From: an uncultured Pelagibacteraceae bacterium | Lineage (GTDB): Bacteria; Pseudomonadota; Alphaproteobacteria; Pelagibacterales; Pelagibacteraceae | Length of the DNA: 64,000 nt | Assembly: GCA_902558705.1 (NCBI GenBank) | Contig: CACEEW010000005.1 | Location: 1-64,000 of the forward strand | Direction: 5' to 3' | Part shown: piece after piece, positions 33,586-53,632 of the stretch | Layout of the letters: every line of letters starts with the position of its first letter | Numbering within the stretch: position 1 is the first letter of the stretch | Program-made: the position numbers and the translations under genes | Notes under the pieces: generated by a model | Told to the model about the DNA's origin: nothing | The model's database searches: none | Seen by the model: only the letters and a program-made list of their open reading frames with translations

Positions 33586-33605
33586 ATTTATTTTACACAG
33601 CAGTA

Positions 33606-33690
33606 ATCGCACTAGTGGGCGAACCCTCGCTGACTAGTGTCGATCTCTTTGTTTCCAAAGACACCGCAAATTTAACGTTTTTGCGGAAAC
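33606..33690 (-). ncRNA. Structured leader RNA candidate upstream of ffh
   Basis: The divergent ffh/dapF gap is much richer in G+C than its surroundings. In minus-strand sense, GTTTCC (33690-33685) pairs with GGAAAC (33656-33651) around an inner GCAAA/TTTGC stem; CCGCAAA/TTTGCGG is an alternative. A long hairpin at 33644-33606 follows, with ATCG/CGAT, a bulged A, CACTAGT/ACTAGTG, a six-base bulge and GGG-TTCG-CCC. The element ends about 20 nt before the ffh start codon. It lacks the SRP-RNA GGTCAGGTCCGGAAGG-type core, so it is not the 4.5S RNA. It may be a cis-regulator of ffh; I faintly recall an ffh-associated RNA family but cannot verify it. Confidence 0.65.
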
Positions 33691-41351: not shown

Positions 41352-42509
41352 TTATATTTTAACTTTTGCAATTGGACCAAACTCATTTTCATAAGCTAAT
41401 TTGTAGTTCGGTTGATTCATCAACAGATACTTCATTGTTCTCTTAGCGTATGCTTTCTGAGAAGCGATAATTTTCTTAAAGAAAGGATCTTTACCAGAAA
41501 ATTCACTTACTATTTTGTCCCAACCTTTTAACTGTTCAGCTAAAATAGCATCAGATGTTTGGTAAACATTAACCTTATGCTCATTCATTAACTTAGCTAG
41601 GTCAGCAGAATATCTAACTAAAGCTTTGAAGTAGTTATCTGAGTTTGCAGCATATGCAGCATTTTTCAAGATAGCTTGATGAGCAGGTGAAAGGCTATTG
41701 TATCTTTTCTTATTCACCGGTATCTCAAACATTTCTTGAGATTGGTGGAAACTACCTAAATGGTAGTGTTTAGATACATCTTGCATTCCAAATTGTGAGT
41801 CTGATGTCGGGTTGTTAAATTCAGCAGCATCAATCAAACCAGTTTTCATTGCTGGTTGAATTTCACCACCTGGTAATTGTCTTACGACCATTCCCATAGC
41901 AGTTAAAACGTTAGTCGCTAGACCAACTGTTCTATACTTCATTCCTTTAACATCAGATACTTTTGTTACGTTCTTTTTGAACCAACCAAAGGGCTGTGCT
42001 GGCATAGGCATATGAAAGAATCCAATGTAATCGAATCCTACTGAAGCAACAGCTTCATCATATAATTTTCTTCCACCACCATACTCCATCCATCCCATTA
42101 CTTCTTGAGATGACATTCCGTATGAAGGACCAGTTCCAAAAAGTGAAGCGGCAGGATTTTTACCATACCAATAAGCTGTTACCCAGTGACCCATATCTAG
42201 GTTACCGTCACTAACAGCTGCTCCTATTTCTGAAGTTTTTACAACTGAGCCTACTGGTTGAAGGTCAATCTTAAGCGAACCTCCAGACATTTCTTTAACC
42301 ATGTTACAGTAGTCTCCAGCCATTTCAAAAAAGATGTTAGCGCCTGAAGGCCAAGCTGCTTGCATCTTTAATGTTACGTGACCGTCTGCTCTTGCAATGT
42401 TTGGCATTGCAACTGTAGCTGCAGCAACAGCTCCAGCTTTAGCAGCAGTTTTAAAGAACTTACGTCTTGAAGATGTTTTAATCTTCAATGATTTATTTTC
42501 TTTTGTCAT
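41352..42509 (-). CDS. dctP: TRAP solute-binding protein with Tat signal, second system
   Basis: 385 residues. The N-terminus carries a twin-arginine signal (SRRKFFKTAAKAGAVAAA, about 14-31, then NIARADG), implying export in a folded state, unlike the Sec-type binding protein at 13039. The mature domain has the TRAP features VSDVKGMKYRTVGLATNVL and GGEIQPAMKTGLIDAAEFNNP, matching the COG4663/TakP-like family that binds 2-oxoacids and related carboxylates. A strong GAGGAG Shine-Dalgarno lies ahead of the ATG. Neighbouring hydroxyacid enzymes support a hydroxy- or oxo-acid substrate. Confidence 0.92.
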   Translation of the reverse strand: MTKENKSLKIKTSSRRKFFKTAAKAGAVAAATVAMPNIARADGHVTLKMQAAWPSGANIFFEMAGDYCNMVKEMSGGSLKIDLQPVGSVVKTSEIGAAVSDGNLDMGHWVTAYWYGKNPAASLFGTGPSYGMSSQEVMGWMEYGGGRKLYDEAVASVGFDYIGFFHMPMPAQPFGWFKKNVTKVSDVKGMKYRTVGLATNVLTAMGMVVRQLPGGEIQPAMKTGLIDAAEFNNPTSDSQFGMQDVSKHYHLGSFHQSQEMFEIPVNKKRYNSLSPAHQAILKNAAYAANSDNYFKALVRYSADLAKLMNEHKVNVYQTSDAILAEQLKGWDKIVSEFSGKDPFFKKIIASQKAYAKRTMKYLLMNQPNYKLAYENEFGPIAKVKI

Positions 42510-42627
42510 TATATCTCCTCTACTAGTTAATTAACTATAATAATTTAAACATAGAATTAGCTTAGAGTCTTTCTAAAAAAAGGGGTAGATGTCGCAGAAA
42601 TTAAACTTTATACAATCTAGGGTAGAA
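42510..42627 (-). promoter_or_regulatory. Promoter region of the second TRAP system
   Basis: 118 bp between the hydroxyacid dehydrogenase stop and the binding-protein gene. It holds the GAGGAG ribosome site and a perfect 12-bp palindrome AGTTAATTAACT (42525-42536) just upstream that could be an operator. No clear -35/-10 pair stands out in the AT-rich sequence. Confidence 0.35.
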
Positions 42628-52203: not shown

Positions 52204-52431
52204 TTAAAAATTTGATGAATTAGATAAAATTTCTTTATTAATGATTTGAGATTTTGCAAAAGCTGCTCTTTCAGATTTTAAATTTCCAAATTTAGCGATA
52301 AATTTATTTCTCTCTCTCACATATTGAACCTTAACAACAAAGTATAAGGATAAAAAACTTATAAGTGTAAACACAAAAGATGATAAAACATAAATGCCAT
52401 ATCCATTCATTAAAAATATATCATTAATCAT
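52204..52431 (-). CDS. ccmD: Heme exporter accessory protein CcmD
   Basis: 75 residues, one membrane helix (about 12-34) with the CcmD pattern NGYGIYVLSSFVF followed by a charged cytoplasmic tail. Position between ccmC and ccmE is decisive. It overlaps the ccmC stop by 4 bp; it aids release of holo-CcmE. Confidence 0.85.
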   Translation of the reverse strand: MINDIFLMNGYGIYVLSSFVFTLISFLSLYFVVKVQYVRERNKFIAKFGNLKSERAAFAKSQIINKEILSNSSNF

Positions 52432-53135
52432 AATCTATCTAATCCTTTATTTTTAATTTTTATCAGTTCTGTATTATATTTCATCAAAAAAATAAGTAAT
52501 GAGAACAGGGCAAATGCCGCAGTCATTATAAATAATGGAAATAACATTGATGAATGAATCGAGGATTTTGATAATATGTTAATTGAAGCAGGTTGATGAA
52601 GTGTATTCCACCAATCAACTGAATATTTTATTATTGGAATATTTATAATTCCCAAAATTGTTATAATTGAAGTAATTTTATATAATTGTTCATTGTTTTC
52701 ATAAATTCTCCAAGCAAGTAAATATATTAAATAAAATAATGCTAAAATTAACATAGAAGTTATTCTTGCATCCCAAGCCCACCAAGTTCCCCAGGTTGGT
52801 TTTCCCCAAATAGAACCTGTAACCAGCGCTATTATATTAAACACAAAACCTGATGGAGCTAAACTTTTTGCAATTAAAAAGAAATTTTTAATTTTAAAAA
52901 TATATCCTAAAATTGATAAAAAGGTAATTGAGGAAAAAATGCCAAGTGCAATCCAGGCTGCAGGAACATGAACATACATAATTCTTACAGCATGACTTTG
53001 TTTATAATCTTCAGGAGATAAAATTAGAGCTTCAGTTAATCCTATTGATAAAACAACAATAAATAAAAATAAAACATATTTTGGAGCTTTAGATGTTACA
53101 GAAAAGATTTTATTAGGTTCTAAAAGTTTAAACAT
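52428..53135 (-). CDS. ccmC: Heme exporter protein CcmC
   Basis: 235 residues with six membrane helices. Tryptophan-rich motif WGKPTWGTWWAWDARITSML near 120-140, and conserved His in IMYVHVPAAWIAL and WNTLHQPASI. It loads heme onto CcmE. First gene of ccmCDEFGH here; ccmA, ccmB and ccmI are not in this window. The 175-bp leader upstream is predicted to be structured. Confidence 0.95.
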   Translation of the reverse strand: MFKLLEPNKIFSVTSKAPKYVLFLFIVVLSIGLTEALILSPEDYKQSHAVRIMYVHVPAAWIALGIFSSITFLSILGYIFKIKNFFLIAKSLAPSGFVFNIIALVTGSIWGKPTWGTWWAWDARITSMLILALFYLIYLLAWRIYENNEQLYKITSIITILGIINIPIIKYSVDWWNTLHQPASINILSKSSIHSSMLFPLFIMTAAFALFSLLIFLMKYNTELIKIKNKGLDRL

Positions 53136-53186
53136 AAATTTTATTTTTTAAGTTTTATTTCAGGTTACTTATTATGAATTTAAAGT

Positions 53187-53268
53187 CTGATCAAGAATGT
53201 AGAGGGAGATAATAACGAAGGATAATAAAAACACTCTTGATCAGGATTATTTAAGTTAAAATAACCCT
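53187..53268 (-). ncRNA. Structured leader candidate between hspQ and ccmC
   Basis: A perfect 10-bp inverted repeat CTGATCAAGA (53187-53196) and TCTTGATCAG (53235-53244) encloses a 38-nt loop, next to a second hairpin AGGATTATTT/AAATAACCCT (53243-53252 and 53259-53268, 6-base loop). On the minus strand the second stem is fully paired through a G-U pair, while the plus strand would have an A-C mismatch, suggesting minus transcription as the ccmC leader or an hspQ 3' RNA. I found no known riboswitch core in it. Confidence 0.5.
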
Positions 53269-53311
53269 GTGACCAAGATTTGAATTAAATGTGTTTAAAA
53301 AGTGATTTTTT

Positions 53312-53632
53312 TTAATTTGACGGTTTAAAATAGCTAGATCCCTTTTTTCCAGAGAATATTTCCTCAATTAGAGGGTGTTTTATTGGCTCATCAGAGTCGT
53401 CCATTAACAAGTTTTGCTCCGATACATAAGCCTCATAAGTAATTTCATCATTTTCAGCTAGAAGATGATAAAAAGGTTGATCTTTTCTCGGTCTAACATT
53501 TTTTGGGATTGATTGATACCATTCCTCAGAATTATTAAACTCGAAATCAACATCATAAATAACACCTCTGAACTCAAAGTGTTTATGCTTTACAATGTCA
53601 CCTATTGAAAATTTAGCTTTTTGAATTGGCAT
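53312..53632 (-). CDS. hspQ: Heat-shock protein HspQ (YccV-like, hemimethylated-DNA-binding domain)
   Basis: 106 residues. The family is recognisable from KFSIGDIVKHKHFEFRGVIYDVDFEF, PKNVRPRKDQPFYHLLAEN and TYEAYVSEQNLLMDDSDEPIKHP. HspQ is a specificity factor for Lon in enterobacteria; a similar role here is inferred. Divergent from yciB. Confidence 0.9.
   Translation of the reverse strand: MPIQKAKFSIGDIVKHKHFEFRGVIYDVDFEFNNSEEWYQSIPKNVRPRKDQPFYHLLAENDEITYEAYVSEQNLLMDDSDEPIKHPLIEEIFSGKKGSSYFKPSN

Follow-up and report, generated by a model that had tools for sequence, protein, structure and literature searches.

The hspQ-ccmC locus

The locus considered here lies in a 64,000-nucleotide stretch of DNA from an uncultured Pelagibacteraceae bacterium (hereafter the window), in which a spacer of 176 nt and 23.9% GC, examined on both strands, separates two genes of the minus strand. 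The features on which the analysis turns are:

52428-53135, minus strand: ccmC, the downstream gene (TIGR01191, 218.8 bits against a cut-off of 186), first in the operon order ccmC, 75-aa ORF, ccmE, ccmF
53312-53632, minus strand: hspQ, the upstream gene (TIGR02097, 123.6 bits against a cut-off of 38)
53187-53244, minus strand: conserved hairpin, 5' arm 53231-53244, 3' arm 53187-53200
53201-53215, minus strand: loop motif UUAUUAUCUCCCUCU, conserved as UCUCCC/CUCCCU
53242-53269, minus strand: second stem proposed earlier, 53242-53252 with 53259-53269, not conserved
53268-53297, minus strand: operator-like block with CA half-sites at 11-bp spacing, three in number (their C at 53293, 53282 and 53271)
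53253-53258, minus strand: predicted -10 box, here TAACTT
53244-53247, minus strand: transcription start predicted from the distance to the -10 box, at the base of the stem

A domain search identified the CcmE and CcmF domains downstream of ccmC and gave no Pfam match for the 75-aa ORF between ccmC and ccmE. For comparison we gathered 150 loci (L001, the window itself, to L150) that share the order of hspQ and ccmC; 128 distinct spacers occur among them. HspQ is very conserved across these loci, with 86.5-100% identity to the protein of the window, and its best matches in a collection of named genomes come from Pelagibacteraceae, in keeping with a SAR11 contig.

A single conserved hairpin on the minus strand

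An earlier note on this DNA had described a perfect 10-bp stem enclosing 38 nt, followed by a second stem, and had read them as a structured minus-strand RNA before ccmC. The first stem is present (53187-53196 with 53235-53244), and on the minus strand it grows through a G-U pair to a 14-bp hairpin of -17.1 kcal/mol, whose stability was equalled by none of 500 shuffled sequences. Measured against shuffles, the whole spacer folds well on the minus strand (z -3.25) and less well on the plus strand (z -1.48), although the absolute energy is lower on the plus strand (-31.6 versus -27.3). The consensus fold of 60 aligned spacers, drawn from the 128 distinct ones at a mutual identity below 87%, is a single helix corresponding to this main stem. 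All 780 cells of its 13-bp core are paired (683 Watson-Crick, 97 G-U, none unpaired), and sliding the structure along the alignment reduces the paired cells to 28-47%. Two-sided changes occur in some sequence at 9 of the 15 modelled pairs, and none of 500 shuffles reached any of five measures in a covariation test; because such shuffles ignore kinship, the stems of other genera described below are the strongest argument for the structure. The earlier note had suggested an alignment of hspQ-ccmC spacers, with absence of conservation counting against its proposal; the main stem is conserved in relatives and covaries, with compensatory changes, and the objection therefore falls for this stem.

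At least one G-U pair is present in the main stem of 58 of the 60 spacers, where the opposite strand would have A-C, and in the own genome of the window a covariance model scores the sense strand at 75.2 bits and the antisense strand at 31.0 bits. The hairpin is a real structured RNA of the minus strand. The strand had previously been deduced from the second stem; the deduction holds, but what carries it is G-U pairing in the main stem.

The second stem itself is present in the window, with G-U pairing on the minus strand, and is not conserved. It is absent from the consensus fold of the 60 spacers, and when the corresponding stretch is folded alone, 29 of 126 distinct anchorable spacers give at least 8 pairs of some kind, only the window (-12.1 kcal/mol) and L031 (-7.3 kcal/mol) lying below -6 kcal/mol; these two results rule it out as a conserved element. 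It also overlaps bases of the main stem and has the predicted -10 box inside it. A two-stem attenuator finds no support: one hairpin alone is conserved and no consistent U run follows it. A T run of at least 4 within 12 nt past the stem occurs in only 45 of the 128 distinct spacers, which does not amount to the U tract directly after the stem that marks an intrinsic terminator or attenuator, and a terminator scan admitting loops of 3-8 nt only returned none at the hairpin. Riboswitches are marked by a conserved aptamer with alternative folds; the consensus folds contain only one hairpin and no alternative fold.

Conservation and distribution of the element

In five genomes of four other genera (g2, g3, g4 and g5) the stem arms differ in sequence and still pair over 12-15 bp. 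These hairpins were spotted by eye and then folded, with one representative folded for g2, and two of the five spacers are near-identical. As the stems of g2, g3 and g4 consist of Watson-Crick pairs and are about equally stable on either strand, the argument for the strand comes from the genus of the window and from locus L186. The covariance model (R1) did not detect the hairpins of g2-g5, and its reach accordingly stops at the genus. With the tighter filtering used for large searches it matched 184 of 297 genomes of the order, all from the genus of the window except one false match. Fifteen genomes of the genus were listed without a match, and all seven of those tested also have no hspQ, indicating that the locus is missing there; the element was never observed apart from hspQ in these tests. 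Rescanning 23 genomes of the genus at E-values up to 0.1 gave one strong copy per genome, with weak extra matches (E 0.003-0.08) in G134, G009 and G260; the idea of two RNA copies per genome was rejected, because the strong second matches fall on the other strand of the hairpin already counted.

We also searched 29 genomes of another family (f2), of which 25 gave a ccmC locus. By eye, no such hairpin was seen before ccmC in any of these 25 loci; in all of them ccmC lies 31-39 nt after another ORF, which we take to be CcmB, and the locus does not include hspQ. A 59-residue piece of that ORF was not named by Pfam. While ccmC stands behind hspQ in the family of the window, it stands behind a membrane-protein-like ORF in f2 (L234-L258), and these differing neighbors indicate that the cytochrome c maturation genes have been rearranged. 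The element was not seen after hspQ of genome G173, and a candidate f2 homologue in that genome (E 2.4e-4) was taken as false because the match falls inside a 594-codon ORF. The hairpin element is thus tied to the junction of hspQ and ccmC, and for this reason its distribution does not separate a part of ccmC from a mere neighbor. A phage origin was also considered and dropped, 121 bases having no match in a phage collection.

A promoter-like block between hspQ and the hairpin

Upstream of the hairpin lies a conserved block, unpaired in the consensus fold, with the consensus TTTAAACACAWTTAGYTCAAATCTTNGNCAYA, in which CA recurs at positions 0, 11 and 22 and TA stands at position 35 within an AT-rich hexamer. 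The three CA half-sites are found in 126 of the 128 distinct spacers of the genus and in all five from other genera, compared with 134 of 2560 and 5 of 100 shuffles respectively. Adding the TA leaves 117 of 128 and 5 of 5 (shuffles 11 of 2560 and 0 of 100), with 11 spacers of the genus lacking TA at this offset, and 89 of 128 but just 2 of 5 have the full TANNNT (shuffles 10 of 2560 and 0 of 100). At up to 3 mismatches, a 28-base pattern drawn from the block occurs nowhere else in the own genome, the reversed control having 3 matches. A TTGACA sequence was rejected as a -35 box with 17-bp spacing, as the conserved TA lies 11 bp, not 17, past this hexamer.

OmpR-family activators bind direct repeats of a half-site, spaced by 11 bp and lying just upstream of the -10 box, where they replace the -35 box. 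The block agrees with promoters of this type in spacing and position, and on these sequence features it suits an OmpR/PhoB-type response regulator as the predicted binder, with transcription predicted to start where the stem begins. Four proteins with an OmpR-family output domain are encoded in the own genome. PhoB lies above its curated cut-off; the other three, labelled ChvI-like, OmpR-like and orphan by resemblance, lie below in every match listed. As read from matches in 25 genomes, the OmpR-like protein and the ChvI-like group occur in all 25 and a PhoB ortholog in 22. It was not found in G123, G086 and G141 (drafts of 97-99% completeness), all of which have the hairpin, and PhoB is hence unlikely to be the sole regulator, which should be present wherever the site is. 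A short protein of the own genome, encoded on contig 14 (L154:1477-2043; 188 aa), has an OmpR-type DNA-binding domain and a weak or degenerate receiver part; the best match of the protein scores 49.8 bits and begins at profile position 68.

A TATA-like box is also seen near the ccmC start in 31 of 38 loci among L111-L150 and in 22 of 109 among L001-L110, a raw count in AT-rich DNA made without shuffle control on the 147 usable loci of the 150. Its presence in many lineages means that ccmC may not need the promoter of the hairpin.

The loop and its potential partners

The loop is G-poor and C/U-rich, and many spacers have another C patch on the 5' side of UCUCCC. UCUCCC itself is found in the loop of 124 of the 128 distinct spacers of the genus; 92 of the 128 have exactly CUCCCU, the others mostly having one to three extra C, and CUCCCU is present in all five spacers from other genera. 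Such a sequence could pair with Shine-Dalgarno regions, and we searched for partners against reversed controls. In the own genome AGGGAGA precedes an ATG 11 times, versus 8 for the reversed pattern, and among the 10 of these 11 loci that were inspected only L201, with a 79-aa ORF that is presumably CDGSH-like, resembles a true start, making it a weak lead. Over 24 genomes AGGGAGATAA has 74 matches, those belonging to the hairpin itself counted, against 86 for the reversed pattern, and no specific target with an extended loop match emerged across the 24. Of 74 start regions in the window, 6 were predicted to pair with the loop at -8 kcal/mol or below and 4 with the reversed loop, and no purine-rich partner was seen before ccmC.

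A gene starting at 42509 on the minus strand, which we take to encode a TRAP-type binding protein, pairs at -16.2 kcal/mol and was rejected as a target, yielding -15.2 kcal/mol with the reversed loop. Among the relatives of this gene, found in 14 of 20 fetched stretches (one at 30% identity), 11 have GAGGAG and 3 only TAGGAG, a mix that points to ordinary Shine-Dalgarno variation. Before the same gene, at 42525-42536, lies a perfect palindrome, AGTTAATTAACT, which may be an operator; each of the 14 relatives shown has GTTAATTAAC close before the start of the TRAP-type gene.

A proposed regulated small RNA or a possible leader of ccmC

Building on the stem, its strand within the genus, the conserved loop and the promoter-like motif, all seen in the spacers compared, we propose that the hspQ-ccmC spacer gives rise to a short minus-strand RNA from a regulated promoter of its own. 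An OmpR/PhoB-family regulator would bind the three half-sites, in place of a -35 box, and direct a start at the base of the hairpin; at its 5' end the RNA would fold into a 13-14-bp stem holding open the UCUCCC loop, and this loop might pair with purine-rich Shine-Dalgarno sequences (GGGAGA, GAGGAGA) and reduce translation of the targets in the manner of the alpha-r14 RNAs. Conceivably the RNA stops or is processed ahead of ccmC, or doubles as the ccmC leader. We put forward this regulated small RNA tentatively, at a little under even confidence; the missing intrinsic terminator, the presence of ccmC downstream at every locus with the element and the negative or unspecific target searches speak against it. 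The same promoter could instead serve a cis-acting 5' leader of ccmC-ccmE-ccmF, in which the hairpin would set mRNA stability or translation and the loop would be bound by a protein or an RNA, a reading that we regard as quite possible but doubtful. It would account for ccmC lying downstream in the same direction at all 150 loci with the element, for the lack of a terminator, for the 29-59 nt that lie between the hairpin and the ATG, for the failure to see the element where another ORF precedes ccmC in f2 or after hspQ of G173, and for the regulation of ccmC mRNA in strain HTCC1062. However, the distance to the start codon varies between spacers, the intervening stretch is mostly poorly conserved, and neither a loop partner before ccmC nor an alternative fold in the consensus was seen. 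Between the trans-acting small RNA and the leader we lean slightly toward the former.

It is unlikely that the pyrimidine loop pairs with no RNA and is a protein site, either for Rho, causing premature termination before ccmC, or for a cold-shock protein; the base composition of the loop, its frequent second C patch and the lack of a specific RNA target in our searches agree with this, but UCUCCC appears to be kept more exactly than composition-based binding would need. Less probable still is a hairpin of the hspQ 3' UTR or transcript end, or a plus-strand RNA: although the hairpin directly follows hspQ, has a palindromic stem and is missing together with hspQ in the seven genomes mentioned above, no consistent U tract follows, and in 58 of 60 spacers an RNA from the plus strand would contain A-C mismatches. 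Because the conserved promoter-like block intervenes between hspQ and the hairpin, an RNA from the hspQ 3' end, which the earlier note had also entertained, is less likely than an own transcript.

Relationship to known RNAs

At the gathering threshold Rfam 15 gave a single match in the whole window:

33601-33654, minus strand: ffh RNA motif (RF01793, 54.4 bits)

No family reached gathering at the loci of 8 relatives, and the 5 matches in 52900-53500 of the window at E up to 10 are all under it. In its variable stems, unpaired anti-Shine-Dalgarno-like motif and promoter-like motif the element is reminiscent of the alpha-r14 sRNAs of Rhizobiales, such as NfeR1, for which variable stems, an ultraconserved unpaired anti-Shine-Dalgarno motif and a regulated promoter are described in the sections consulted of PMC10746234. 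It differs from them in having one hairpin with UCUCCC rather than three hairpins each with CCUCCUCCC, and does not belong among them by this mark; NfeR1 also has a reporter-tested target, whereas pairing by the hairpin before ccmC is conjectural. By description it may also be likened to ChvR of Caulobacter, an alphaproteobacterial sRNA with its own promoter under two-component control (PMC6237742, excerpts). The ChvI motifs given in the available portion of PMC9731502, TTGC-N3-GCAA and GCC-N8-GCC, differ from the CA repeats, the latter sharing their 11-bp spacing.

Comparative analysis has previously uncovered intergenic structured RNAs in SAR11, the candidates from Ca. Pelagibacter ubique comprising rpsB, rpsL, ffh, SAM-V, pntA, rhtB, bablM and SAR11_0636 (Meyer 2009; PMC2704228, main text). 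Table 1 of that study, whose full spacer list is in the supplement, has no spacer beside ccmC, and its 26% GC cut would drop the 23.9% GC spacer of the window, though that of HTCC1062 may differ. Stav 2019 analysed the SAR11 strain HIMB5, and its main text, the candidate list being in the supplement, names neither ccmC nor hspQ (PMC6429828); nor do the excerpts of two later surveys (PMC8632094, PMC11109978). No published description of the hairpin was found among the literature matches listed, and the structured RNA with its conserved promoter-like block is apparently undescribed.

Implications

In stationary phase, sulfur-limited HTCC1062 was reported, in the part of the study consulted, to contain 4.74-fold more ccmC mRNA than the control, ccmC being the sole ccm gene in that table of 15, with no CcmC peptide detected; its authors explain the rise by heme supply (PMC5069961). 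Without amounting to proof, this response agrees with a regulated transcript at ccmC, be it short or a leader, and a regulatory RNA could explain why ccmC reacts to sulfur limitation separately from the rest of its operon. The view put forward for SAR11 bacteria is that their transcriptional regulators are few and that they depend on post-transcriptional control (PMC13198564, excerpt). A regulatory RNA shared by at least five genera, present in one strong copy per genome and preceded by a promoter like those of response regulators, would offer a concrete and testable control. A speculative extension, which we consider improbable as it stands, is a single-hairpin sRNA under two-component control that acts as a general brake on genes with strong Shine-Dalgarno sequences, such as those for abundant transporter binding proteins, when growth stops. 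If true, it would represent a global anti-Shine-Dalgarno regulator in the most abundant bacteria of the ocean, widespread in Pelagibacteraceae.
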